From assembly GCA_021812785.1 (NCBI GenBank), contig JAKAMR010000001.1:1-64000 (forward strand): a stretch of DNA of 64,000 bases, written 5' to 3'. Positions 15,901-64,000 of the stretch are shown in pieces. A program made the translations under genes and the position numbers. Numbering within the stretch: position 1 is the first letter of the stretch; every line of letters starts with the position of its first letter. The notes beneath the pieces are model-generated. The model had not been told where the DNA came from. It saw only the letters and a list, made by a program, of their open reading frames with translations, and searched no databases. The stretch is from Nitrospirota bacterium (GTDB taxonomy: Bacteria > Nitrospirota > Thermodesulfovibrionia > Thermodesulfovibrionales > JdFR-88).

Positions 15901-15997
15901 TCTCCGCAGAATTTTCACTGGTGAGATCACCTGCAGGATTTTTACCGGTGAAACCCTCTCCCGCCGTTTCATCGCTGGACATTTTAAATTGAATCAA
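12902..15997 (-). CDS. treY: Malto-oligosyltrehalose synthase
   Basis: 1031 residues, longer than the usual 700-950. Start is a TTG at 15997 with AAGGGGA just upstream; an ATG at 15982 (residue 6) is the alternative. After a low-complexity N-terminus (about 1-45, rich in E, K, T) the GH13 domain begins with VSTYRLQFN. Catalytic-region motifs are DIVPNHM, GLRVDHLDGLYNP (nucleophile Asp) and STHDTKRSEDVRARL, with a C-terminal DFYQGTELW. It converts the reducing-end linkage of maltodextrins to alpha,alpha-1,1, giving maltooligosyl trehalose for TreZ. A KQKQKQK patch encoded by 13728-13752 and the KTKTKT near the N-terminus are A-rich coding tracts of the type seen throughout the window. Confidence 0.94.
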   Translation of the reverse strand: MIQFKMSSDETAGEGFTGKNPAGDLTSENSAEREAGQTEKTKTKTLRVPVSTYRLQFNRLLPFSRARNIIPYLHELGITDIYSSPNFRSAPGSLHGYDLIRYDQLNPEVGTLEEYGLFTEELSRYGMGQVQDIVPNHMCILGDNPWWQSVLENGRSSHYASFFDIDWFAPLETLKDKVLLPILGEQYGKALEMGEIKLSFREGGFFLACYENLLPVEPGSYELILRHRLGELEREIGGSEHYEELMSVITSLGHLPGTQERDLEKKRERNREKEVIKRRLLALYEASAEVRFFVEGNVRIFNGVKGDPRSFDLLDGLISRQPYRLSFWVVATDEINYRRFFDINQLAAIRPELPDVFDESHRLIFEFIKQGRITGLRVDHLDGLYNPAEYLRDLQQDAVLAMLPQEEAQDRKPALKTELLQKPPAVPFYIVGEKILMKGERIPEDWPICGTTGYDFMNSLNGIFIKQESSRRMDETYFRFIGEKINFPDLAYRAKRQIMESSMSGEINVLGHRLYMLAQKSRLTRDFTLLSLTRALSEVMACFQVYRTYISSSGAGERDRRYMEQAVKKAQRMNTSISAQTFEFIKQVLILEYSAELPADDKAEWFDFVMKLQQQTGPIMAKGLEDTAFYIFNRLLSLNEVGGSPDRFGLSMETFHGQNIERNKYWPFSMTATSTHDTKRSEDVRARLNVLTEMPGAWREALMKWKRTNKRKKPVLDRPVPSPNEEYHLYQVLLGIWPLQGLFNGGEQERKQKQKQKSFMERIKQYMIKAAREAKVNTSWINPDKEYEEALLSFIDRILAPMDKNKNPFLRDFSPFADMVSRYGLLNSLSQTLLKAASPGIPDFYQGTELWTFSLVDPDNRGDVDYDARMRLLDELKSMEVSMGKSRLCGELLERLDDPRIKLYVTWKALHFRKTFREIFVGGDYVSLGTEGVKKENLCTFLRKKGAETALVCAPRFFAGLLPPRDVSAGKAVPVGEAVWKDTCVELPGPGRFKDVFTDRTVETREEGGRYLLRAGELLSGFPLFLAEQFS

Positions 15998-16054
15998 AAA
16001 TTCCCCTTGCCGTGCCCGGATCGAATGAATTTTTCGATCCTGATCTTTTTACCT

Positions 16055-18565
16055 TTAAAACCTGAGGAGCGCCTCATTGGCATTGAAGAAAAGGTCCTCT
16101 CCAAGCCCCCTGAACTCTTCGCCCCATTTTTTCCCGTTTTCTCCCTTTTCGGGGCCGGTCATTTTTTTATAAAAGAGATGCCCAAGCTCCCAATATGCGT
16201 TTTGCTCCGCCCACAGATTTATATCGAAGGGCAGTGTGGCGGCAAATTTGACAAGGGCCCTCAATCCCTTTAGATCGCCTGCCCCCTTTCCCTCCCTGAG
16301 GGAAGCAAACAGGGACATGAACCTTTCTTTTAAAACCGGTTCAAGCTCCCGGCCGGGCTCCAGCCCCCAACCGGCAAGCTCATCGCGAAGCGCGGCGGCT
16401 TTTTCGATATTTACCGGCTCTTCCCTGAGCGCCTTTTCTATCTCCGGGGCCAGGGACAATTCGGATGCCGCCAGGAACGGCCTTGGTATGGGCGCTTTGA
16501 AATCCTTCAGGAGTCCCATCAGAAAACGGTCCCTCTCATAGATCTGCGCAAAATGGACCATGGATTCTTCCAGGGTCTCCCGGACCGCGGCTTCAAGGAC
16601 CTTCCTCTGCTCGTCCAGAAAGAGGTCCCGTATCGAATATACCCCGCGGGTGAATCCGCCCACGGAGCTGGAGGCTTCCGGCCCGCCCTCCGTCTGAAAA
16701 ATTTTTCCATTCTTTTCTTTTATGGTCGTTTTGAATGACTCATACCCAGGTTCGGAGCCGTCTCCGGAAAGCCCGCAGGTTATATCATGCCCGTCTTTTT
16801 TGAGGACCGCGAACTGCCAGATCCCGCTCCTGCCGTGCTCCGCGCCGTCTTCCCCTGTTATCCGTGAGCGTACATTTATCCTCCCCACCGCTATCCTGCC
16901 CTGCGTATCATCTTCGGTACCGGGCTCTGAAAAAGGAAGTAAAACCTCGTAATCAAGCCTTGTCACGTCATAACAGTAAAGGCTTTGCTGCCTGGCATAG
17001 TCTTCAAACAGGGAGCTTATGGCATAGTGAACGGCAACCTTGCCCAGATCGATGACTTTTACCTTGACCTGGCCATTGTATATGGCGGCCCCGTCACCTG
17101 CCTCCTTAATGTTGCTTTGCGCCTTTGAAAGTATCTGGAGGAAATGCCCTTCGAGGTCATCTCCCTTGAGCTCCCTGCAAAGCTGTGCGGCCCTGCACGC
17201 ATACTGGAGCACCTGGAGCGCTTCGATCCCCGATATGTCATCGAAAAACCAGCCGCAGCTTGTGAACATAAGCATTGCGTGCCTTTGCATCTCCAGGAGT
17301 TTCAGGGCTTCCACCCGGCAAAAACCTGAAACTCCCGAAATCGGGCCCTCCGGTCTTTTTACGGCATGTCTGTCCATGAACGCGGAGATCTTCCCTTCCG
17401 AGCGGTCCAGGACCACTTCTATATATCCGTCCCGTGCCTGCCATGGGTCTTTGAAAAAAACCCGGGCCCGTTTTTCGAAAACCTCCGCCAGTTGTCCGGA
17501 AAGCCAGTCCAGGGCCTTCCTGAGCGGGGCCCTCCACTTCTGGTTCCAACCGGGGTTGCCGCCGGTGGAACAGCCGCAATCGGAGCGCCATCTCTCCACC
17601 CCGTGAAAACAGCTCCACGAGGTGTTCTCTTTTATCCGTGCCTCCCATTGAGGCGGGTATTTCTCCAGGAACTCCCCGTAATTGGCCACCTTCGCCAGGT
17701 TGTTTTTCTTTATGTGGTGGATGCAGTAGGCAAGCGCCATGTCGCCAAACCGGCTATGGTGCCCATAGGACTCCCCGTCTGTGGCGATATGGGCCAGCTG
17801 TGGCCGGTCTTCCCCGGAAAATATCTGCGCCAGTCTTTCAGCCAGCAGGACGCCACTTTTCAAAAGACCTTCGAAAGCCACGCCCCTTGAGGCCGGCCCG
17901 TTATAAAAAAATACCGCTATGCGGGCCCCTGAGGGCAGCTTTATGAAGTAGGGCAGTTTTGTGTCCACCGAGTTCTCATCAACGTGGAGCCATTCATCGC
18001 TCCCCGGTGCCCTGACCAGGTGGGCCTGCCCAGGGGCAAGTATCGTGAATTTGATGCCCTGTCCGGCAAGTATCTCCAGGGTTTCCGTATCCACTGCGGT
18101 CTCTGGAAGCCACATTCCTTCGGGATCCCTAGAAAAGCGCCGTCTGAAGTCCTCTATGCCCCAGATCACCTGCGTGGTCTTGTCGCGCCTGGAGGCGAGC
18201 GGCATTATCATGTGGTTATAGCATTGGGCTATCGCGTTGCCATGCCCGGAATGTTTTTTAAGGCTCTGCCTGTCGGCCTCGATTATCGCCTCATAGACGG
18301 GTTTTGAGAATTCCTCCATCCAGCTGAGCAGGGTGGGGCCAAAGTTGAAGCTGATATCTTTATAGTTGTTTACAATGCGGCTTATCTTCCCCCTGTCATC
18401 CAGAATCCTCGCATATGCGTTTGCCGCGTAACATTCGGCCGCAACGCGCTCATTCCAGTCATGGTAGGGACGGGCGCTGTCCTGTATCTCAATCGCCTCC
18501 AGCCAGGGGTTTTCCCTGGGCGGCTGATACATATGGGTATGGATTACGATATACCTGTTATCCAC
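16055..18565 (-). CDS. GH57 family glycoside hydrolase with DUF3536-like C-terminus
   Basis: 836 residues from a GTG that overlaps the treZ stop by eight bases. The N-terminal half is a GH57 barrel: IHTHMYQPPREN at the start, GMWLPETAVDTETLE (contains the family nucleophile glutamate) and HIATDGESYGHH (catalytic aspartate). The C-terminal half corresponds to the DUF3536-type extension that accompanies a group of GH57 proteins. GH57 enzymes act on alpha-glucans (amylase, branching, 4-alpha-glucanotransferase); the activity of this subgroup is not established to my knowledge. Its position between treY and treZ argues for a role in preparing or trimming maltodextrin/glycogen for trehalose synthesis (inference). 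Confidence 0.88.
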   Translation of the reverse strand: MDNRYIVIHTHMYQPPRENPWLEAIEIQDSARPYHDWNERVAAECYAANAYARILDDRGKISRIVNNYKDISFNFGPTLLSWMEEFSKPVYEAIIEADRQSLKKHSGHGNAIAQCYNHMIMPLASRRDKTTQVIWGIEDFRRRFSRDPEGMWLPETAVDTETLEILAGQGIKFTILAPGQAHLVRAPGSDEWLHVDENSVDTKLPYFIKLPSGARIAVFFYNGPASRGVAFEGLLKSGVLLAERLAQIFSGEDRPQLAHIATDGESYGHHSRFGDMALAYCIHHIKKNNLAKVANYGEFLEKYPPQWEARIKENTSWSCFHGVERWRSDCGCSTGGNPGWNQKWRAPLRKALDWLSGQLAEVFEKRARVFFKDPWQARDGYIEVVLDRSEGKISAFMDRHAVKRPEGPISGVSGFCRVEALKLLEMQRHAMLMFTSCGWFFDDISGIEALQVLQYACRAAQLCRELKGDDLEGHFLQILSKAQSNIKEAGDGAAIYNGQVKVKVIDLGKVAVHYAISSLFEDYARQQSLYCYDVTRLDYEVLLPFSEPGTEDDTQGRIAVGRINVRSRITGEDGAEHGRSGIWQFAVLKKDGHDITCGLSGDGSEPGYESFKTTIKEKNGKIFQTEGGPEASSSVGGFTRGVYSIRDLFLDEQRKVLEAAVRETLEESMVHFAQIYERDRFLMGLLKDFKAPIPRPFLAASELSLAPEIEKALREEPVNIEKAAALRDELAGWGLEPGRELEPVLKERFMSLFASLREGKGAGDLKGLRALVKFAATLPFDINLWAEQNAYWELGHLFYKKMTGPEKGENGKKWGEEFRGLGEDLFFNANEALLRF

Positions 18566-53510: not shown

Positions 53511-54050
53511 TTAAAGCAGCACTTGTTTTTCTGCTTCCAAAATTAATTTGGAATCCTTCCTGGTTTCCAGATTCCGTAATTCAGGGTAGCCGCTCTTATT
53601 GAACCGCCGCTTGCGGATTTTTTTAAAACCGGCCTCCATGATCCGCCGCTCCAGCTCCTCTTTGTTATATAAATACTGGTGCCCCCATTCCCTGAAGCAG
53701 AGATTGACCATTTCCGCTTTTGTTTTCAGCCACTCATATCCGTATTTCTTTATCCAGGCCTGTCTTTTCCAAAAGAAAAAATATTTAAAAAGCAGATAGT
53801 TCAAATCGGGAGTAGCTACCCTCACCACTCCGCCCGGCTTAAGCACGCGAAAAAAATCCTTAAGAACTTTCACCCCTTCTTGAGCAGTTATATGCTCTAT
53901 GAAGTGTTCGGAATATATAAAATCAACTGTTCCGGTCTCATAGGGCAGCGGGTTCCTCATGTCGTGCCTCAAATCCGCCTTTGGTGAATCCATGTCAATA
54001 TTGACCCACCCAGGAAAACAGACTTCCCCGCATCCCACATTGAGCTTCAT
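53511..54050 (-). CDS. Small class I SAM methyltransferase
   Basis: 179 residues. MKLNVGCGEVCFPGWVNIDMD is a typical motif I with the acidic end of beta 2, and FIYSEHFIEHITAQEGVKVL and RVLKPGGVVRVATPDL are motifs III and post-III of the UbiE/Methyltransf_11 group. Target unknown; position between transporter genes and modifying enzymes suggests a polysaccharide-modifying or capping role. Confidence 0.85.
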   Translation of the reverse strand: MKLNVGCGEVCFPGWVNIDMDSPKADLRHDMRNPLPYETGTVDFIYSEHFIEHITAQEGVKVLKDFFRVLKPGGVVRVATPDLNYLLFKYFFFWKRQAWIKKYGYEWLKTKAEMVNLCFREWGHQYLYNKEELERRIMEAGFKKIRKRRFNKSGYPELRNLETRKDSKLILEAEKQVLL

Positions 54051-54232
54051 TTGAACCCCTCAAAAAATATTATTTTTAAATGCCCTTCCAAAATTACAAA
54101 ACCGCATATAAAAACTATCTCATTGTCTCCGATCAATCAAGCTCTCCGATGGCCTCAAAAACTGGAATGACCAGTTTATTGAATTCCCGTATCCGTCCTG
54201 AAACGGGCTTTTGATTCTGCGCCACTTTCTAA

Positions 54233-55564
54233 TTAGCCGGAGATTTCATAATCCAGCCCGACCGGTATTTGAACGAAATCCCATACCGGCACTGATTCGC
54301 GGATACGCATCTCAAAAATATATGCATTTTCAATCCAATCAAGAAATACGACATCAGAGAACATATTCTGATCGGTAAAACTCGATATAAGCAGATTAAT
54401 ATTGTAAACTCCGTGTTGCAAGGGAAGGCGGGTTATAAAATTAATTGCCAGACGATCGCCTTTCCGGAATTTCTTTTTGTAAATATCCGTACCTAAAGCA
54501 AAAGAATCGTGACCGATAATTTCCTGTCTTTGTTTATTTCTTATATGATAGCCGACTGCAATATTCCCATAATCCTCAAAAAACTCAATATAGGCTTTTA
54601 TCTTTATTCTCTGATCAAAAACCATGCTGTTATTGATTGGCTCATCGTTTTCACCCGACACTTCAATGGCCTTAAATTTGGCCGCTCCGGTGCCGCTTCT
54701 AAAGTGTTTTTGGGCATCTAAAAAATCATCTCTGGCAAATTTTTCCGAGATTCCGTTTAATGTACTAAGCGGCGTATCAGGCAGTTTGCTTACTACTACC
54801 TTTTTGGGCTGAATATTGGCCGCGTTTACATCACCGATTAAAAACTTGCCGTATTCCAAAGCTACCTCTCCAGAATCACCAAGAGCCTTTGTTAAGCCAT
54901 TTTGAAGCCAAATGGAATGTTTACATAAACTCTTGATAGAGCTGAGATCGTGGCTTACGAACAGGAGCGTAACCCCGCTGTCTATCATTTTTTTTATCCG
55001 TGTCATGCACTTTGCCTGGAAGAACATATCGCCCACCGACAAGGCTTCGTCCACCACAAGAATGTCCGGATCAATATTTATGGCGGCGGCAAATGCGAGT
55101 CTCACATACATACCGCTGGAATATGTCTTGACCGGCTGGTCGATGAATTCTCCTATGTCAGCAAACCCAAAAATGGCCTCAAGGCGGTCATCCATCTGCT
55201 CTTTCGTAAACCCCTTGATGGCCCCGTTCAGGTAGACGTTCTGCCTTCCGGTAAAGTCCGGATTGAAACCCGCCCCAAGCTCCAGCAGCGCGGATATGCT
55301 CCCGCTGACCTGAACACCGCCATCAGAGGGTTGGAGCACCCCGCACAATATCTGAAGGAGGGTGGATTTACCGCTGCCGTTCCTGCCGATGATGCCAAGC
55401 GATTCCCCCTTTTTCAATTCGAAAGACACGTCCCTTAGCGCCCAGAATTCGCGGTGGTATTTCTTCCTCAAGGGATGCAGCGCCTCCTTCAGCCTGTGCT
55501 GAGGGCTGTCGTACAGGCGGTACTTCTTACTCAGGTTCTTTGCGCTTATGGCGATGCCGTCCAT
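54233..55564 (-). CDS. wzt: Polysaccharide ABC exporter ATP-binding protein with Wzt-like C-terminal domain
   Basis: 443 residues. Residues 1-245 are the ABC domain: Walker A GRNGSGKST (60-68), signature YSSGMYVRLAFA, Walker B ILVVDEAL and the H-loop FVSHDLSS. Residues about 290-440 are a beta-sandwich as in Wzt, which recognises the modified chain end of O-antigen (family knowledge). With Wzm this forms the exporter that flips undecaprenyl-linked polymer across the inner membrane. Terminal modifications by the methyltransferases here may be the export signal (inference). Confidence 0.92.
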   Translation of the reverse strand: MDGIAISAKNLSKKYRLYDSPQHRLKEALHPLRKKYHREFWALRDVSFELKKGESLGIIGRNGSGKSTLLQILCGVLQPSDGGVQVSGSISALLELGAGFNPDFTGRQNVYLNGAIKGFTKEQMDDRLEAIFGFADIGEFIDQPVKTYSSGMYVRLAFAAAINIDPDILVVDEALSVGDMFFQAKCMTRIKKMIDSGVTLLFVSHDLSSIKSLCKHSIWLQNGLTKALGDSGEVALEYGKFLIGDVNAANIQPKKVVVSKLPDTPLSTLNGISEKFARDDFLDAQKHFRSGTGAAKFKAIEVSGENDEPINNSMVFDQRIKIKAYIEFFEDYGNIAVGYHIRNKQRQEIIGHDSFALGTDIYKKKFRKGDRLAINFITRLPLQHGVYNINLLISSFTDQNMFSDVVFLDWIENAYIFEMRIRESVPVWDFVQIPVGLDYEISG

Positions 55565-56389
55565 TTATAGCACATCCGCGAAATGCGGCTTAAGTTTTGT
55601 ATAAAAGAAGGCTCCCAAGGCAAAAATGACGAAGGCTTCTCCCCAGAAGTAAAGCATCATCTTCCAATGAGCCCAGAAGGGCTCCGATGAGAAAAAGGAG
55701 GCCCGGTAGCCCTGGACGACATAAAACATGGGATTGAATCTCAGAAGAAACATGACCTTGTGCGGCAATGCTTTGGGGTCCCATACTATGGGGGTCGCCC
55801 AAAACCCCAGTTGCAGGGCCACGTTCACGACCTGGACAGTGTCCCTCGAAAAAACATTGACCGAGGAAGTAATCCAGCCTATGCCCAGGGCAAGGACGCA
55901 CATCGCAAAGAAATAATAAAGGGCTTGGAACCAGAACAGGCTGACAGGCATTTTATGCGTCAGTATAAGCATGATTAAAAGGAGCAGGAAAACGCCGTGC
56001 GTCACTAAAGAGGCCGCCACTTTGACCACCGGCAATATGCTCAGAGGGAACATGACTTTTTTTACAAGATGCGCATTGCCCACAAAGACGTTCGTGGAAT
56101 TGTTTATGATCTCGCTGAATGTGTTCCAGACCGCCATGCCTGCGGTCATATAGACTATATAAGGGGCGCCGCCCACGGCGGGGGACCTGAACAAGACACC
56201 GAAAACGAACCACAATACGGCGATATTGATGGACGGGTTGATAAAGGTCCAGAAAAAACCCAGCATGGAGCCGGCTAGGCTGGTCATAACGTCCCTTTTG
56301 GCCATCTCGAAGATAAGGAACCTCTTCTGATAAAGAGTGAGCAGGAAATTGCCGAATTTCGCCAATATAAATGTCAGTCTCTTTTTCAT
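55565..56389 (-). CDS. wzm: Polysaccharide ABC exporter permease (ABC-2 type)
   Basis: 274 residues with about six hydrophobic segments. MAKRDVMTSLAGSMLGFFWTFINPSIN at the N-terminus is the coupling region of Wzm/KpsM/TagG permeases. It pairs with the ATPase encoded directly downstream. No Wzx/Wzy genes are present, so assembly is by the ABC-dependent route. Confidence 0.92.
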   Translation of the reverse strand: MKKRLTFILAKFGNFLLTLYQKRFLIFEMAKRDVMTSLAGSMLGFFWTFINPSINIAVLWFVFGVLFRSPAVGGAPYIVYMTAGMAVWNTFSEIINNSTNVFVGNAHLVKKVMFPLSILPVVKVAASLVTHGVFLLLLIMLILTHKMPVSLFWFQALYYFFAMCVLALGIGWITSSVNVFSRDTVQVVNVALQLGFWATPIVWDPKALPHKVMFLLRFNPMFYVVQGYRASFFSSEPFWAHWKMMLYFWGEAFVIFALGAFFYTKLKPHFADVL

Positions 56390-56596
56390 CCCGATCCGGG
56401 GAATGCGTCAGGCGGGACCCTTTATCAGGAAATTTATCAAACGAATGAGTTCCAAATCCGAAACTCCCCCTTCCCCGGCCGCCGTAATATTCCCCCGGAC
56501 GCGTTTCTGCCGGGGGCCGGCGTTCCCAAGCCAAATTCTACAGCTTTTTGGCCATAAGGCAAGGGCCAAAATACTTCTCCCGTATTTTTTTAAAAA

Positions 56597-58048
56597 TTAA
56601 AAATCCCTGCTGCCCTCCCTGGAAAGCACCACCCGCACCGTCTTAAGAAGAATGATCATGTCGAGCCACATATTCCAGTTCCTTACATACCACAGGTCCA
56701 GCTTCACCCGGCTTTCGTAGTCCATTTCATTCCGGCCGCTGACCTGCCAGAGACCGGTTATACCCGGTAGAACGCTGAAACAAAGCCTTGAGCTCTCCTT
56801 GTAATAGATATCTATTTCATCCCGTGTAACAGGCCTGGGCCCTATGAAGCTCATTTCTCCTTTAAGCATATTAAAGATCTGCGGCAGCTCATCAAGGGAT
56901 GTTGCCCGTAGGAACTTCCCCAGGCTTGTAACCCTGGGATCATTTCTGAGTTTCCTGTAAGTCTGCCATTCCTGCCTTGCCGCAGGGTCGGCCGCAAGAA
57001 GTTTTTCCAGTCTTGCCTCCGCGTCCACATACATCGTCCTGAACTTATAGCACCAGAATGCCTGTACGTTTTTGCCGATCCTTAGCTGTCTGAATATGGC
57101 CGGTCCCGCGGAGGTGGCTTTCACCATCAAAAATATCACCATGACAGGGACCAAGAATATCGCGGCCAATGCAAACCCGACTGTTAAGTCGAAGAGCTTT
57201 TTAAGAACATAATTGTGCGGTCTTCTGAGGTTGTTTTTTATCTCGATAACCATGCCTTCCTGGCTGCCGAAATACCTGAATTCCGCCCCCAGGACAGCCA
57301 CTGCAGCCATGTCCGGCATGAATAATGTGTTTTCCGCCTTGTGCTGGACCTTGCTTATGATATTTGCGAGCCTGTCTTTGTCCAGGTCCGGCGCGGCTAT
57401 CATTACGTCATTAATGCAGCACCTCCTGATATACCGGTCGGCCTTGTCCATGAAGCCGTGCACCTTCAGGCCGTCTATGCGCCCCGCATTGGTTCCGGCG
57501 GCCTCTCCGATAAATCCGGACACATCATAGCCAAGGTTCTTTTCCCTGCGCACGGCCTGCAGCGCACCCCGCGCGGCATCGCCAGAGCCCAATATGAGCA
57601 GCTTTCTTCTTAAAAACCCTAACCTGTACAAGGCCTTTTTTGCCAAAGTCCTTATCAGCGGAAAAGATATCAGGGACAGAAAACAGATGGCCAGCAGGAA
57701 CGCCCGTGAGAACCTATCCCCTTCCTTGGCAATGAAAAAAAGCGAGAAAGCGGCAACGCTGACAATAAAAGTGGTTTTCCAGAGGGACTTTACCTCATCC
57801 CAGAAGGTAAACCTTTTTGTATATGCGCCATTATATGCAAGCACAGCGAGCCAGACAGGAATGATCCAGTGGTAATTCCAGGGCCGGAACACAAAAGCCG
57901 GCATTGAGTGGAAGAAAAGCGGAAGAAAGCTTTCTCTGATGGCCTTCGCGGAGAATACGAGGACAAACAGTACGCATAGGTCGGCGCACGCCAGCAAGGC
58001 AATGCCGGCCACGGTCCTTAGCCTGGATTCAAACTGTCCTTTTGCCAC
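56597..58048 (-). CDS. WbaP-like polyprenyl-phosphate sugar-1-phosphotransferase
   Basis: 483 residues from a GTG at 58048. The N-terminal half has about four membrane segments, then a CoA-binding-like domain (ILGSGDAARGALQAV, about 160-260). The C-terminal catalytic domain has KKLFDLTVGFALA, FWCYKFRTMYVDAE, RKFLRATSLDELPQIFNMLKG-type motif around 400 and FIGPRPV, typical of bacterial sugar transferases. It starts chain synthesis by moving hexose-1-phosphate from UDP-sugar to undecaprenyl phosphate. First gene of the minus-strand polysaccharide operon. Confidence 0.92.
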   Translation of the reverse strand: MAKGQFESRLRTVAGIALLACADLCVLFVLVFSAKAIRESFLPLFFHSMPAFVFRPWNYHWIIPVWLAVLAYNGAYTKRFTFWDEVKSLWKTTFIVSVAAFSLFFIAKEGDRFSRAFLLAICFLSLISFPLIRTLAKKALYRLGFLRRKLLILGSGDAARGALQAVRREKNLGYDVSGFIGEAAGTNAGRIDGLKVHGFMDKADRYIRRCCINDVMIAAPDLDKDRLANIISKVQHKAENTLFMPDMAAVAVLGAEFRYFGSQEGMVIEIKNNLRRPHNYVLKKLFDLTVGFALAAIFLVPVMVIFLMVKATSAGPAIFRQLRIGKNVQAFWCYKFRTMYVDAEARLEKLLAADPAARQEWQTYRKLRNDPRVTSLGKFLRATSLDELPQIFNMLKGEMSFIGPRPVTRDEIDIYYKESSRLCFSVLPGITGLWQVSGRNEMDYESRVKLDLWYVRNWNMWLDMIILLKTVRVVLSREGSRDF

Positions 58049-58349: not shown

Positions 58350-59306
58350 ATGAAAAGCGAATGCATCCGTGTGGGGCACCTGTCCACCTTTTATCACACC
58401 GCCATGCTCCTGATGGCAAAAGGACCGGGGGAGTTCTTTGATCTTGAATGGAGGCTCTTTGCCACTGGCCCTGATATAGTGAACGCCTTCCGGCAGGGGT
58501 TGATCGATATCGCATACATAGGGCTGCCCCCCGCGATCATCGGAATACAACAAGGCGTAAGAATAAAATGTGTGGCGGGCGGGCATATTGAAGGCACCGT
58601 AATGGCTGGCATTAAAGGACTCAAAGGCTATCCCGGCCTGCAGGGTTTTGACCAGGTCCTGGGCCAGTTAAAGGGCAAAAAAATTGGCGTGCCCGGGAAG
58701 GGTTCCATACATGATGTGATACTTTCCGATGCCCTTGCGCGTTACGGCCTTGCAGGGTCTGTGGAGGTCGTAAATTTCAAATGGGCCGATGCGATAACGG
58801 AGGCCGTTTCTAAAAACCAGGTCCAGGCGGCCCTTGGCACCCCTTCGCTTGCTGTCGCCATCGTGCGCTATGCTGGCGGCCAGGCGCTTTATCCGCCTCA
58901 TCTCATCTGGCCCGGCAACCCAAGCTACGGGATCGCGGCTGCAGAGGAGTTCATCAAATCACATCCTGGCGAGCTGGAAAAATTTTTAAAAAAACATGAG
59001 GAATCCTCCCGCGAGCTTAGGGAAAACCCTGTGGAGTGCGCGAGAAGGATATCCTCCTACACCGGCGTGGCAGATGAGCAATTTGTCCTGGACGCCATCA
59101 ATATGTCCCCGAAATACTGCGCCCAACTTACGGAGGAATACATGAAGGTGACTATGGATTTTGCCAGCGCCCTTAAGAGGCTTGGCTACATTGGGCAGGG
59201 GATAGGCAAAAAGGACTTTTTTTCGCGGGAGGACATATTTGAAACCGGATTCATAAGAAAGGTGCACCCCGCAGGCGACCATTACTCGCCGGTAAAAGGC
59301 CGGTAA
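58350..59306 (+). CDS. SsuA/THI5-like periplasmic-binding-type protein lacking a signal peptide
   Basis: 318 residues. The N-terminal domain has the SBP_bac/NMT1 pattern: VGHLSTFYHTAMLLMAKG, IVNAFRQGLIDIAYIGLPPAI and LKGKKIGVPGKGSIHDV, as in ABC-type sulfonate/nitrate or thiamine-precursor binding proteins. It begins directly with the mature-like fold, without a signal peptide or lipobox, and no ABC genes are nearby. It may be a cytoplasmic sensor or THI5-like enzyme, or the true start may be missed; no better start is visible upstream. Confidence 0.7.
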   Translation: MKSECIRVGHLSTFYHTAMLLMAKGPGEFFDLEWRLFATGPDIVNAFRQGLIDIAYIGLPPAIIGIQQGVRIKCVAGGHIEGTVMAGIKGLKGYPGLQGFDQVLGQLKGKKIGVPGKGSIHDVILSDALARYGLAGSVEVVNFKWADAITEAVSKNQVQAALGTPSLAVAIVRYAGGQALYPPHLIWPGNPSYGIAAAEEFIKSHPGELEKFLKKHEESSRELRENPVECARRISSYTGVADEQFVLDAINMSPKYCAQLTEEYMKVTMDFASALKRLGYIGQGIGKKDFFSREDIFETGFIRKVHPAGDHYSPVKGR

Positions 59307-59379: not shown

Positions 59380-60003
59380 ATGCCCAAAAAAGAAAAAGAG
59401 CGATCATTGCCGCAGCCGCCCAGAAAAAAAACGAGGCCAGGTTTCCATGAACAGCCGGAAAGGGAAGGCCTCGTGTTCGACAAGCTTCAGGAGGCTATGG
59501 CGGAAGGCAAGGTTGAAGAGTTCATGAAAGAGAATATGCCGGAGGGCGAATATGCCCGGAAACTGGCCGGGTTGATGATGGGCATGTCCGGGGTGCCTTT
59601 CGCGGAAAGGCCAGCCGGGCCCGCTTCCGGCCCAAGCCAAGAAATGAAAGCTGATGAGACCGAAAGGCCCATGCTGCAAGTGCCGGAAGACGTGCTTCAG
59701 GCGGCCCTGGCTGGCAACGTAAGTACGCTGGCCGGCCTGCTGGGACGGGAACACGGGAAAAAACAAAAACCACAACCCGGAAAGAAAAAAGAAAAAGGCG
59801 GCGCCGCATATTCTGAAAGCAGGGCTGAGGGGCAACCCGAAAAAAAGGAGGAACTGGCGGAAAGAAACGGCTCGCTGCTTGAAAAAGAGATCGTAGACAG
59901 CCTTCTGGAGATCTCGGTGGACAACAACCTGGCAATGGACTGGCTTATATACCGGGCGCTTAAACTCTACATTAAAAAATACCGTGAGACCGGCCAGTTA
60001 TAA
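59380..60003 (+). CDS. Lys/Glu-rich protein of unknown function
   Basis: 207 residues; AGAGGGGAAAA precedes the ATG. Low-complexity segments rich in K, E, P, Q (MPKKEKERSLPQPPRKK, about 1-18; KKQKPQPGKKKEK, about 128-140) alternate with short helices (VFDKLQEAMAEGKVEEFMKE). The last 45 residues (EIVDSLLEISVDNNLAMDWLIYRALKLYIKKY) form an ordered helical end. No family recognised. It could be a chaperone- or nucleoid-binding type protein; there is no evidence. Confidence 0.55.
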   Translation: MPKKEKERSLPQPPRKKTRPGFHEQPEREGLVFDKLQEAMAEGKVEEFMKENMPEGEYARKLAGLMMGMSGVPFAERPAGPASGPSQEMKADETERPMLQVPEDVLQAALAGNVSTLAGLLGREHGKKQKPQPGKKKEKGGAAYSESRAEGQPEKKEELAERNGSLLEKEIVDSLLEISVDNNLAMDWLIYRALKLYIKKYRETGQL

Positions 60004-60057: not shown

Positions 60058-61221
60058 TTAAAAACCGCGCAAAAACTCCATGAACTCCCGTTTTATCTCC
60101 ATATGCCCAAGCGGGATAACAGGGACGTCCCGATTCCCCGGCAGGGCAAGGGCGTGAATGAATTTAGGCCCTTTTGTTTTTCTCCCAAGGGCATTTGCGA
60201 GCTCTTTTTCCCCCTCCGCCTTTACCGTTTCCAGCCCGAACCCCTTTGCCACGGCCCCAAGGTCTATGCAGCCCGCCGTCAGCGTGGGCTGATTTCCGGT
60301 TGAGCCGTAAGCCCCGTTATCAACCGCCAGGATCGTCAGGTTTTTGCCCCCTGAAAGGCAGGCGGCGGTGGCCAGGGTGCCGGGGTTCATCAAGAGGCTT
60401 CCATCCCCGTCTATTACGACCACCTCTTTTGAGCTATTTGTATCAGAGAGCGCGATCCCAAGGCCTACGGGCGTGGCCATTCCCATGCTGCCAAGCATGT
60501 AAAAATGCGATGGCCTGTGCCCTATGTGGTATAACTCCCTCGATGGGAACCCTAAATTGCAGACCACGGCTTTTTCCTCAAGGAAAGGCCATATGGCTGA
60601 AAGGATCCCATACCTGTCAAGGTTCTTTGAAAGCGTTTTTACCATTTTGGGGCTACCAAAAGATCCGGCAAGCGGGGGCCCGCCTCTTTTCCGCCCCGCT
60701 TCCAAAAAATTCCCTTCGATCTTCAGTTTTGAGCCTTCCCACAGGGCTGGGGAAAGGAGAAAGGCGTGTATCCGGTTTTTCAAATAGACCTTTTCCAGAA
60801 TTTTTGGAACAAGCGCCAGGTCAGAGGCGGAGTCAATGGCGGTAAAACCTATCCCGGCTCCCCTAAGGATACCCGGCAGCTTAAGGCCCATCGGCGCCTG
60901 GGCCGCGATCTTCTCTTTGTAAACGCCCCTGTGGCTGACGAAGACGGCAAGCGGAAGCCCATAAAAACCGGTAAGCGACAGAAGGGCATTTATCATGTTG
61001 CCTATCCCCGAGTTCTGGATGAACATGGCGGGCCTTTTACCTGTAAGCGCCGCCCCGGCGCATATGCCCACGCCCTCCTCCTCGCGCGTAAGGGGCACGT
61101 GGAAGAAACCGCGGGACACCAGGCCCAAAAGCCCTTTTATCCTGTCGCAGGGCAGCGTTGCTGTAAAATCCACTCCGCCTTCGCGCAGCATCTCTGTTAG
61201 CTTTTCTTCAGCGCATAGCAT
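60058..61221 (-). CDS. Sulfopyruvate decarboxylase, fused alpha and beta domains (ComDE-like)
   Basis: 387 residues. The N-terminal half is a TPP-enzyme PYR domain (LTREEEGVGICAGAALTGK with the activating glutamate; IQNSGIGNMINALLSL), the C-terminal half a PP domain with GDGSLLMNPGTLATAAC and LAVDNGAYGSTGNQP (the GDG-N thiamine-pyrophosphate motif). ComD and ComE decarboxylate sulfopyruvate to sulfoacetaldehyde in coenzyme M synthesis; fused ComDE proteins exist, notably in Methanosarcina. Phosphonopyruvate decarboxylase is the closest alternative, but the neighbouring cysteate synthase (overlap 14 bases) strongly favours sulfopyruvate. First such gene that I recognise beside HdrD-like genes here. 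Confidence 0.88.
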   Translation of the reverse strand: MLCAEEKLTEMLREGGVDFTATLPCDRIKGLLGLVSRGFFHVPLTREEEGVGICAGAALTGKRPAMFIQNSGIGNMINALLSLTGFYGLPLAVFVSHRGVYKEKIAAQAPMGLKLPGILRGAGIGFTAIDSASDLALVPKILEKVYLKNRIHAFLLSPALWEGSKLKIEGNFLEAGRKRGGPPLAGSFGSPKMVKTLSKNLDRYGILSAIWPFLEEKAVVCNLGFPSRELYHIGHRPSHFYMLGSMGMATPVGLGIALSDTNSSKEVVVIDGDGSLLMNPGTLATAACLSGGKNLTILAVDNGAYGSTGNQPTLTAGCIDLGAVAKGFGLETVKAEGEKELANALGRKTKGPKFIHALALPGNRDVPVIPLGHMEIKREFMEFLRGF

Positions 61222-62464
61222 AATTAAGCAGTTTCTCTATCTCGTTTTCTGATGCATTTTTGGAAATCAAATAAGGGCTCACCCTCTTGACGGCCCTGTC
61301 CCTTTTAAGCCGCCTCTCGCCGCCTCCCGTTATATTAAGCAGCACCGGCCCGTCCGTTCCCACCTTGCCGCTCCTTGTTGCCTGTATGAGCGCGGCGGCG
61401 GCAACACCAGCTGCGGGCACCAGGTCTATCCCTTCCGTCTCCTCGAAAAGGTCCATTGCCGCGTAGACCTCCTCATTTGCTACCCCGTACATCACGCCCC
61501 CGGTCGCCTCAAGCGCATCGTACACGCCCCCCAGCACTCCGTAGGCCGGATACCTGTTTGAAAGGACTCTGGTTGTGGTCTCGCTTACAAGCGCAAAGTC
61601 CAGGTCTTCCGGGAAGAGCTCCCTGCTTTTTTTCAGGTATGCCTTTGTCATGGGAGCAAAGGGCAGGTTCTGGGCCAGGTGCAGGGCGGGCAGTACCTTG
61701 CCGAACCGCCCGTCCTTCAAAAACCTTTCGGACATCTCCCATGCGGCAATTGCCCCTGCTCCGCTTCCCACCGCCTGGAAATAGTGGCGCGGGAGCATCC
61801 CCATGGTGCTTACCGCCTCCAGCATGGCTATTCCGAGCCCGTCCCTTTTTGCTATGTTTTTCACGCCTCCTTCAAAAGGCATTCCGGCCACAATGGCTAT
61901 GCGTTTGGCGGTGTTTATGGAATCCGCGTAATCGCCATCCGAGACCGCTATGGTGGGAGCGCCGCCGGAGGCTTCATCCCCAAGATACCACATCTCGGAA
62001 AGACACATGGAAGGCACAACTATAATGGCCGGGAAGCCCGCGACGGAGGAAAGATGAGCGAACGCCCTGGCAGTATTCCCGGCGGAGGCTGCCACCAGAC
62101 CCTGCATCCCGTTTTCCATCGCGTTCTGGATGACTACGGCTGCCTCGAACTCCTTGAACGTGCAGGTCTTAAGGTGGGCGCCTTTTTCCGGCCAGTACCC
62201 GCAGAAACATATGTACAGCTCGGGGATGCCAATCTTCCGGGCGAACCCTTCGGAACGGTAGACTGCCGGGCCCGGCTGCCTGAAACCCGGCGAATGGACA
62301 GGGAGCCAGTTGAATTTCCAGGCCCCCTCTGCCTGCCCGCATGAAAATTCCTTGTCCTTGTATTGCGTTACGAGAAGAGCGTTTACGCAGTGCTCGCAAA
62401 AAGCGCAGTAAGCGTTTTCAAGCATCTTTCCGCATTTCCTGCACACGATGGAAAAATGGCTCAT
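61208..62464 (-). CDS. Cysteate synthase (threonine-synthase-like PLP enzyme)
   Basis: 418 residues. An N-terminal Cys-rich segment (CRKCGKML, CAFCEHC) precedes the PLP fold. The sequence follows Methanosarcina cysteate synthase through WLPVHSP, YRSEGFA, YWPEKGAHLKTCTFKEFEA (with the PLP lysine region KTCTF), VAASAGNTARAFAHLSS, YFQAVGSGAGAIAAWE and LLNITGGGERRLK. That enzyme makes L-cysteate from O-phosphoserine and sulfite. Threonine synthase is less likely because the WPEKGA/KTCTF region is specific. An aminotransferase would be needed to turn cysteate into sulfopyruvate for the next enzyme; a general aspartate aminotransferase could serve. Confidence 0.88.
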   Translation of the reverse strand: MSHFSIVCRKCGKMLENAYCAFCEHCVNALLVTQYKDKEFSCGQAEGAWKFNWLPVHSPGFRQPGPAVYRSEGFARKIGIPELYICFCGYWPEKGAHLKTCTFKEFEAAVVIQNAMENGMQGLVAASAGNTARAFAHLSSVAGFPAIIVVPSMCLSEMWYLGDEASGGAPTIAVSDGDYADSINTAKRIAIVAGMPFEGGVKNIAKRDGLGIAMLEAVSTMGMLPRHYFQAVGSGAGAIAAWEMSERFLKDGRFGKVLPALHLAQNLPFAPMTKAYLKKSRELFPEDLDFALVSETTTRVLSNRYPAYGVLGGVYDALEATGGVMYGVANEEVYAAMDLFEETEGIDLVPAAGVAAAALIQATRSGKVGTDGPVLLNITGGGERRLKRDRAVKRVSPYLISKNASENEIEKLLNYAMR

Positions 62465-62469
62465 ATCGA

Positions 62470-63693
62470 TCAGAAGACCTCCGCTAGAAGTTCCATTACA
62501 TCCACGATACCAAGTTGCCCGCCGTTTTTTCCCCGGCTATCGTGGCCCTCCAGAGCGGCCCCCGCAATGGAGTAACAGGCCGGGCAGCCCAGGACAAGCC
62601 TGTCCGCCTTTTTCTCACAAGCCTCATTTATGGCCAACCTGAATATGGCCAGCGCGTTGTCCCGGAACACCTTCCTCGCGGCGCCCCCAGCCCCGCAGCA
62701 GCGCGAGTTCACCCTGTTTCTCTCAAACTCCAGCAACTGCGCACCCGGTATCCGCTCAAGGACCCTGCGCGGCTCTTCCGTTATTCCCACTCCCCTGCTC
62801 AGGTAGCAGGGATCGTGATATATAAGCCGCTCATCAAGGGTCCTGTTTACGGACAGCCTGCCCTCCGCAAAAGAGCGGTCTATATATTGGGAAATATGCA
62901 TGATGCCAAAGGGCAGCCTCCGCCCGTAGAATGACGGCCAGTCCCTTGATATCATATTCACGCAGCAGGGACATGAGCATATGAGCGTCTTCACCCCTTT
63001 TTTGGCGTACGCCTCGACCAGCTTTTTTACAAGCCCCTCCAGCAACTCGAACTGCCCCGTTATGAAAAGCGGGAAACCGCAGCAGACCTCTTCCTCCGCT
63101 GGAAGCATTGTAAAAGGCTCCCCCACGCGGGAGAGAGCCTGCACGTCACCCCGCACCATTGGCGTTGCATCATAGGCCCCGGTGCAGCCTGCATAATAGC
63201 CCAGATTGGCCCTCTGCGCCACTTTTACCTCCGGAGGCCGCCATGAGAACCTGTCACCGGCGGGCCTGTCATAAGGATTGCCGGTCCTGCTCACTGCCTC
63301 CGGCGCTTCCTTCTGCTGGTCTATCGGCCCAAGCCCGCGTTTGACCATCTCCCTGCGTAGCATGGGCCATAGCCTCTGGGTATGAATGCCGACGGTGCAG
63401 GCCTCTCCGCAGGCGCCGCACGTGGTGCACTCAAAAACGGCCTTTGTGAAATCCTGAAGCAGTTTTTCATCTATCCTGCCCTTGCCGAAAAGCCACTGCC
63501 GGAGGACGCCCGTTTTTTTTATGAAATCCTTAAAATTCCGTATCTTTTCGGGCGGGGAGACGGACCGGTCTCCCGTCACTTCCTGCACCGGGCAGTATTT
63601 CAGGCATTCGCCGCACTGGGTGCATGCGTCCAGCTCCAGGAGCTGTCCGCCTGAAAGACATCTTGAAAAAGAGGAACTGTCCTGCCTGCTCAT
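62470..63693 (-). CDS. HdrD/GlpC-like Fe-S protein with two CCG domains
   Basis: 407 residues. N-terminal 2x[4Fe-4S] ferredoxin motifs (CTQCGECLKYCPVQ and CTTCGACGEACTVGIH), then two CCG-type cysteine domains (YAGCTGAYD with VCCGFPLFITG; YHDPCYLSRGVG with SRCCGAGGAARK). This is the layout of HdrD, HdrBC fusions, GlpC and LutA-type proteins, which hold special [4Fe-4S] centres for disulfide reduction or quinone-linked electron transfer. Its start overlaps the membrane-subunit gene by four bases and it stops six bases before the cysteate synthase start, so all four genes form one operon. Confidence 0.88.
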   Translation of the reverse strand: MSRQDSSSFSRCLSGGQLLELDACTQCGECLKYCPVQEVTGDRSVSPPEKIRNFKDFIKKTGVLRQWLFGKGRIDEKLLQDFTKAVFECTTCGACGEACTVGIHTQRLWPMLRREMVKRGLGPIDQQKEAPEAVSRTGNPYDRPAGDRFSWRPPEVKVAQRANLGYYAGCTGAYDATPMVRGDVQALSRVGEPFTMLPAEEEVCCGFPLFITGQFELLEGLVKKLVEAYAKKGVKTLICSCPCCVNMISRDWPSFYGRRLPFGIMHISQYIDRSFAEGRLSVNRTLDERLIYHDPCYLSRGVGITEEPRRVLERIPGAQLLEFERNRVNSRCCGAGGAARKVFRDNALAIFRLAINEACEKKADRLVLGCPACYSIAGAALEGHDSRGKNGGQLGIVDVMELLAEVF

Positions 63694-64000
63694 GACGTAA
63701 AAATATCCCCTTTCACCGGACCCTGCCGCCTTTTTGCCCTGTAAATGGTGAAGGGCGCGGCAAAGATGTGGGTGGGCAGATAGAGCAGAAGCGCGAGTGC
63801 CAGAAGGAAATGGGCCAGGAACGGCACTTCACCCTGAAAGCCTCCCAATATTTCACCGGGAAGTGCCCCTGAAAAAAGCGCCTGCGGATCAAGGGAAAAC
63901 ATCATGAACTCTTTTACCGCCACCACGTTCGGATAGAAATATATGCTTAAAAGGGCACCCAAAGAGCTTATTAGGAAAAAAGCAGCCAGAAGAAAATAGT
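63690..64000 (-). CDS. NarI/HdrE-like membrane subunit, C-terminal part (5' end outside window)
   Basis: The frame is open to the window edge, so the gene starts beyond 64000; about 103 C-terminal residues are visible. Two membrane segments can be seen (FLLAAFFLISSLGALLSIYF and a second, FLAHFLLALALLLYLPTHIF, with a histidine in each half as in heme b-binding NarI-type proteins). Together with the HdrD-like protein it recalls the HdrDE and Dsr/Qmo-type membrane complexes that link quinols to thiol/disulfide chemistry. Exact family cannot be fixed from a fragment. Confidence 0.75.
   Translation of the reverse strand, partial: YFLLAAFFLISSLGALLSIYFYPNVVAVKEFMMFSLDPQALFSGALPGEILGGFQGEVPFLAHFLLALALLLYLPTHIFAAPFTIYRAKRRQGPVKGDIFTS

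Follow-up and report, generated by a model that had tools for sequence, protein, structure and literature searches.

The question raised by this locus is why a bacterium should keep genes like those of the Methanosarcina route to coenzyme M (CoM) next to genes for a membrane complex resembling heterodisulfide reductase. The window, meaning the whole stretch of 64,000 nucleotides that was analysed (Nitrospirota assembly GCA_021812785.1, contig JAKAMR010000001.1), corresponds to C17:148362-212361, minus strand, in its own genome, which comprises 2.2 Mb in 29 contigs and is 76% complete. The original prediction, made from the letters alone, had described four overlapping or near-abutting minus-strand genes at 60058..64000, encoding a cysteate synthase (CS), a fused ComDE-type sulfopyruvate decarboxylase and an HdrD/HdrE-like pair. 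This observation was confirmed and its interpretation is partly supported. The four genes belong to a 12-gene same-strand island that is cut by the window end. With a probability of roughly 0.6, we read this island as a bacterial economy of CoM or a near-identical sulfonate thiol, with a corrinoid methyl hub and membrane disulfide recycling, a reading that builds on directly seen gene families, gene order and co-inheritance.

The assignment of the two sulfonate enzymes comes from curated family models. CS (418 amino acids; 61208..62464, minus strand) passes the NCBIfam model TIGR03844 with 462 bits against a curated cut-off of 324.9 and matches the PDB entry 9k3c, ‘Cysteate synthase’, with 288 bits. 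Its residue K104 is aligned with the lysine of the SFKDRG motif in 2zsj, which we take to be the pyridoxal phosphate-binding lysine of threonine synthases, and is conserved in 45 sequences, where conserved means kept in at least 97% of the aligned sequences here and below. The binding of clusters, haem, zinc and pyridoxal phosphate by the island proteins is in general predicted from their families. The nearest named relatives of CS, from Nitrospirae metagenome-assembled genomes (MAGs), share 84, 84 and 80% identity, and further relatives' proteins with 65 and 68% are labelled ‘Thermodesulfovibrionales bacterium’, which points to a Nitrospirota host, probably of the Thermodesulfovibrionales. 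Identity is 39-43% to Alistipes-type cysteate synthases and 23-26% to the genome's two own ThrC proteins; the latter value and a separate position in the tree, which was built without archaeal CS and in which an antisense artefact labelled ThrC (orf3) was disregarded, led us to reject a misnamed threonine synthase. By its family, CS is predicted to form cysteate from phosphoserine and sulfite. ComDE (387 amino acids; 60058..61221, minus strand) passes the alpha-subunit model TIGR03845 (177.7 against 147.95) and falls slightly below the beta-subunit model TIGR03846 (210.7 against 221.5). Three scanned relatives score 223.6, which passes the beta model, and 220 and 211.5, again slightly below; one of the three passes both models. 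A phosphonopyruvate decarboxylase was rejected, as judged by model score, with 185 far below the cut-off of 312.5. Family and context support what the original prediction proposed, both for the identity of the two enzymes and for a Methanosarcina-type upper route as far as sulfoacetaldehyde.

The sequence past position 64000 revealed two UROD/MtaA-family methyltransferases, an MtrH-family protein, a corrinoid protein and a RACo-type activase within the same island, which extends about 8.0 kb beyond the window as far as the start of UrodA at C17:140344. Coordinates of island genes refer to L002, the stretch of the own genome that carries the island past the window end, and the names UrodA, UrodB and MtxC were coined in this analysis. 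In the order of transcription, the island reads UrodA, CMD, MtrH, UrodB, MtxC, QueG/RDH-like, RACo, DUF6951, HdrE, HdrD, CS (L002 17899-19155) and ComDE (from L002 19142), with an intergenic spacing of -14 to 158 bases. CS and ComDE overlap by 14 bases, HdrD and CS are separated by 5 bases, and HdrE and HdrD overlap by 4 bases.

Gene order was compared in 43 CS loci, each from a different CS genome. Two overlapping samples supplied them: the order sample of 61 genomes (the own genome and 60 relatives) contributed all of its 23 CS genomes, and the phylum sample of 295 genomes added 20 out of 24 more. ComDE directly follows CS in all 43 loci. Upstream of CS and on the same strand we found HdrD in 40, DUF6951 in 35 (there upstream of HdrE or HdrD), RACo and HdrE each in 33, a second HdrE type in 7, the FeS protein in 31, MtxC and UrodB each in 29, MtrH in 28, CMD in 22 and UrodA in 16 of the 43 loci, the lower counts also covering loci cut short by a contig end or by the 20 kb to which each stretch was limited. 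Three loci (L036, L037 and L043, from G026, G046 and G014) are without HdrD before CS on its strand; in these genomes HdrD and UrodB lie on other contigs than CS, and CS is away from the contig end. An arrangement that recurs in 43 CS loci is not due to chance.

Co-inheritance was followed in the same samples. CS scored above its cut-off in 23 of the 61 genomes, and UrodB at E <= 1e-90 in 24, namely all 23 CS genomes and G055. The same 24 genomes hold HdrD at E <= 1e-60, with at least 532 bits in the CS genomes and 300 bits (40% identity) in G055. The HdrD-like gene accompanies CS in 23 of 23 genomes, which argues against an unrelated lactate- or glycerol-oxidising unit, the possibility that the original prediction had named against itself. 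A gene for an SsuA-like protein, which lies beyond ComDE on the opposite strand, was found at E <= 1e-40 in 23 genomes that are exactly the CS set, on another contig than CS for example in G016, G023, G034, G038 and G052. In the phylum survey, CS occurs in 43 and the SsuA-like gene in 44 of the 295 genomes, 41 being common to both, and the SsuA-like gene is present in 22 of the 24 CS genomes that this sample adds. Fisher tests, which ignore shared ancestry, gave 2.7e-17 for CS and SsuA and 6.4e-16 for CS and UrodB in the 61 genomes, and 3.9e-44 for CS and SsuA in the 295. Since shared ancestry inflates such counts, the unlinked cases weigh more and are stronger evidence than the raw numbers. 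Together, shared gene order and unlinked co-occurrence speak against mere juxtaposition.

The HdrD-like protein (407 amino acids; 62470..63693, minus strand; L002 16670-17893), recognised by the Pfam domains CCG and Fer4_8, contains two 4Fe-4S motifs (C24/C27/C30/C34 and C89/C92/C95/C99) and two complete CCG motifs, the cysteines of which are all conserved in 42 sequences. The HdrE/NarI-like membrane subunit, of which the window holds the 3' part (63690..64000, minus strand) and L002 the whole gene (15954-16673; 239 amino acids), had no match in the Pfam or NCBIfam scans; its residues H77, H87, H200 and H214 are conserved in the 36 sequences with at least 30% identity, a set that leaves out the second HdrE type. 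The pair shows two CCG and two 4Fe-4S motifs in HdrD and four histidines in HdrE, presumably as in HdrDE. In L076 (G219:C24) and L101 (G055:C26), the place of the usual pair is taken by a second HdrDE type, in which HdrD comes before HdrE and shares about 39% identity.

In the methyl-transfer half, UrodB (354 amino acids; L002 11068-12132) passes PRK06252, ‘methylcobalamin:CoM methyltransferase’ (289.2 against 244), and TIGR01463, MtaA/CmuA (259.7 against 235.4), and the MtaA structure 4ay7 was aligned over its residues 5-336 with 183.6 bits. H244, C246 and C321, which correspond to the H-x-C and C of 4ay7 and which we take to be zinc ligands, are conserved in 39 sequences. UrodA, another UROD-family protein (342 amino acids; L002 8345-9373), reaches 184.3 with the MtaA/CmuA model (cut-off 235.4); H237 and C239 are conserved in 21 sequences, and the third cysteine is below the 97% level. 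The MtrH-family protein (L002 10041-10994) scores 328.5 against a cut-off of 287, and such a protein of Desulfitobacterium is a methylcorrinoid:tetrahydrofolate methyltransferase (PMC8630106; papers are cited here and below for the portions of their text that were available). MtxC (L002 12129-12821) has Pfam B12-binding domains and 205.4 against 215.3 in a corrinoid-protein subfamily model, and the RACo-type activase (L002 13612-15630) has Pfam RACo domains and stays below the AcsV cut-off. Judged by these families, the genes of this half form a corrinoid-centred methyl hub, served by an MtrH-family protein on one side and by one or more MtaA-family proteins on the other. The hub is tied to folate one-carbon chemistry by FolD, encoded within the island in 6 of the 43 loci, and by MetF, which a few loci (L002, L078 and L104) have close to the island. 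G023:C7, G037:C89, G046:C87, G052:C26 and G055:C7 each encode a further MtaA-like protein with about 51% identity to UrodB. Family scans also recognised the CMD-family protein (L002 9532-9978), which shows 66-99% identity between genomes, the QueG/RDH-like 4Fe-4S protein (L002 12826-13551) and DUF6951 (L002 15637-15951), in which C11, C35, H73 and C76 are kept in 41 sequences.

The CoM synthase of Methanosarcina is MMP16 (PMC12068725), and it was found in no surveyed CS genome, which makes the SsuA-like protein (58350..59306, plus strand) a candidate enzyme for the final step to CoM. It has the SsuA/TauA fold of periplasmic sulfonate-binding proteins, the structure model reaching a pLDDT of 86, and C74, H79, H121, H216, C257, H306 and H311 are invariant in 47 homologues. 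It is apparently cytosolic: inspection by eye only recognised no leader, the first strand beginning at residue 6, and no adjoining permease. Downstream of CS-ComDE, on either strand, the SsuA-like gene occurs in 14 and orf207, which follows it on its 3' side in the window (59380..60003, plus strand) and had no match in the Pfam or NCBIfam scans, in 20 of the 43 loci. MMP16 passes its cut-off in one of the 61 genomes, G055, and in one of the 295, G116 (78% complete, 5% contaminated), both without CS; the wider HcyBio family was found, among the 61, in G055 only. There, an MMP16-type protein (401.5 bits, cut-off 364) and a second HcyBio-family protein flank a CCG-domain protein (L068, G055:C95, 7770-9095 and 10658-11578) in bacterial-looking surroundings of this Nitrospirota MAG. 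The idea that the SsuA-like protein simply replaces MMP16 was not kept, as only G055 fits it, with MMP16 and UrodB and without CS or an SsuA match at E 1e-40; its island (L100, G055:C19:8000-27999) contains a weak SsuA-like match of 26% between RACo and DUF6951. G219 has CS without the SsuA-like gene and without MMP16, and at E 1e-90 G238 shows the SsuA-like gene and no CS, both of which speak against such a replacement. Other mismatches are G132 with CS only (74% complete), and G125 (74% complete) and G129 (8% contamination) with the SsuA-like gene only. By eye, the gene adjoins a sensor-kinase and response-regulator pair in L103, L104, L111 and L114, which would fit a sensor role. In view of these mismatches and neighbours, the protein remains a candidate, either for a CoM-forming enzyme or for a sulfonate sensor. 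A CobW-like GTPase was noticed by eye in L103, L104 and L114. In the own genome, a pair of sensor kinase and NtrC-like regulator (by eye) lies upstream of the island at L002 1-2405, and a polysaccharide-export-like ABC ATPase and permease with a sugar-phosphate transferase (by eye) occupy 53511-58048 of the window on the minus strand.

From these families and their association we infer CoM as the product, its use by UrodB and HdrDE, and the direction in which the groups flow. CS would turn phosphoserine and sulfite into cysteate, a general aminotransferase, as described for cysteate in Methanosarcina (PMC12068725), would yield sulfopyruvate, ComDE would release sulfoacetaldehyde, and the SsuA-fold protein may complete CoM. 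MtxC, kept active by the RACo-type activase, would be the hub for up to three methyltransferases, the MtrH-family protein exchanging methyl groups between MtxC and folate, the MtaA-like UrodB between MtxC and CoM, and UrodA with a third partner, which may be a methylated substrate or CoM again. HdrD and HdrE would form a membrane disulfide oxidoreductase between a CoM-containing disulfide and the quinone pool. The simplest joint reading would be a reversible methyl transfer between CH3-folate and CH3-corrinoid and between CH3-corrinoid and CH3-CoM, while HdrDE would handle the thiol's disulfide. The gene mcrA was found in 0 of the 61 genomes, both methanogen controls being positive, and since no methyl-CoM reductase (MCR) was found, methyl flow from a methylated compound to folate is probably favoured over flow to methane. 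A methanogen or contaminant contig was rejected on the same mcrA result and because single contigs as long as 2.29 and 2.25 Mb (L039 and L089) contain the island too. Wood-Ljungdahl enzymes were dropped as a discriminator, as the CdhC/ACS domain occurs in 59 of the 61 genomes and is not informative.

Several points weigh against this reading. Methyl-CoM is not known to be used without MCR. UrodB stays below the equivalog models MtaA (259 against 400) and MtbA (199 against 600), and was not filed as MtaA itself because the former was missed; UrodA is below all methyltransferase cut-offs; the best named NCBIfam model for HdrD, TfrB, gives 153.9 against 385. MMP16 scored above its cut-off in 0 of the 23 CS genomes among the 61 and in 0 of the 43 among the 295, where at most six candidates per genome were scored, and a 2025 paper considers the last CoM step possibly non-enzymatic (PMC12713407). 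The thiol-cofactor cycle of the original prediction gains support from the methyl-transfer half and, with MMP16 not found in CS genomes, remains a hypothesis. Finally, G055 retains the methyl-transfer half without CS. This would suit a CoM-independent methyl uptake of the Mto/Mtv or chloromethane kind, from substrate to corrinoid to folate, with the sulfonate genes serving another need, which we consider unlikely. The Mto system of Methermicoccus, which delivers the methyl group to a pterin and not to CoM, likewise combines an MtrH-like protein, two methyltransferases, a corrinoid protein and a 2Fe-2S activase (PMC8630106), and one aquifer incubation with 13C-veratric acid showed uncultured Thermodesulfovibrionia as one of the dominant labelled groups (PMC10602745), which is part of our main doubt. 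However, MtoB1 and MtoB2 are MtvB-related proteins of 47-48 kDa (PMC8630106), as opposed to the 342 and 354 amino acids of UrodA and UrodB, and UrodB passes the MtaA/CmuA model and accompanies CS in 23 of 23 genomes, three of which keep both genes on different contigs.

A smaller chance is given to cysteate and sulfoacetaldehyde feeding another sulfonate, be it a sulfonolipid, taurine or isethionate. Chryseobacterium gleum makes its sulfonolipids starting with a cysteate synthase (PMC11211663), and the identity of the window's CS to the Alistipes-type enzymes points the same way, but the constant neighbour ComDE would draw cysteate away from lipids, and an acyltransferase of the sulfonolipid pathway was not recognised among the island genes scanned, no genome-wide search having been made. 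Equally improbable, in our view, is that HdrD and HdrE are a generic quinone-linked CCG complex, for instance delivering electrons to the corrinoid activase, with CoM, if made, acting only as a thiol buffer. CCG proteins are diverse, every named NCBIfam match of HdrD falls below its cut-off, RACo lies upstream in 33 of the 43 loci, and CoM has been reported as an antioxidant in Methanosarcina (PMC12713407); on the other side stand the conservation of both CCG motifs, both 4Fe-4S motifs and the four membrane-subunit histidines at no less than 97%, and the position of HdrD before CS in nearly all loci. Beyond the CoM economy that we prefer, a bolder version is a speculation we would sooner doubt than adopt: that the Nitrospirota pathway has as its final enzyme a new CoM synthase with the sulfonate-binding SsuA/Thi5/DszB fold and that CoM carries methyl groups and electrons between folate one-carbon units and the membrane HdrDE without MCR, a methanogen-like cycle uncoupled from methane.

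Among bacteria and archaea, CoM is described as serving the metabolism of alkenes and alkanes (methane), and a single bacterial route to it is known (PMC12068725). Already known are bacterial cysteate synthase for sulfonolipids (PMC11211663), bacterial CoM by this other route, and the HdrDE, MtaA and MtrH families. Among the matches listed in the literature searches, judged by title and abstract, nothing was recognised that describes this combination of genes, how it is distributed or the SsuA-like partner, or that treats CoM or cysteate synthase in Nitrospirota, subscription papers and preprints lying outside the scope. In their available portions, PMC9469722 and PMC11631310 do not treat the subject, and PMC13222342 does not mention Nitrospirota. 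If our reading is true, the many Nitrospirota with this island would possess a CoM-dependent methyl and electron economy in which no MCR was found. This would matter for the question of how the components of methanogenesis came together or were exchanged, and the SsuA-like protein would be a concrete candidate for the CoM-forming enzyme.

Among known systems, the type 2 CoM biosynthesis of Methanosarcina, with cs, comDE and mmp16 as MA3297, MA3298 and MA3299 (PMC12068725), resembles the island in that cysteate synthase adjoins ComDE (PMC12068725; PMC12713407), but here the host is bacterial, MMP16 was not found in CS genomes and an SsuA-fold protein tracks CS instead. The Xanthobacter pathway would share the product, if CoM is made here; it begins at phosphoenolpyruvate (PMC12068725), whereas the island's route would, by family, begin at phosphoserine. 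The cysteate synthase of Bacteroidota sulfonolipid synthesis (PDB 9k3c; closest named relatives Alistipes) belongs to the same TIGR03844 family, with 479 versus 462 bits, and differs in the partner gene, which is ComDE in the island. Methanosarcina HdrDE and MtaA have their counterpart here in the cofactor motifs of HdrD and HdrE and in the alignment of UrodB with 4ay7; they differ in that MCR was not found here and the equivalog cut-offs are missed. The Mto/Mtv O-demethylases share the same gene kinds, an MtrH-like protein, two methyltransferases, a corrinoid protein and an activase (PMC8630106); in contrast, the island is linked with CS, ComDE and HdrDE, its UrodB belongs to the MtaA/CmuA family, and UrodA and UrodB differ in size, and UrodB also in this family assignment, from the MtvB-related methyltransferases described in that source.

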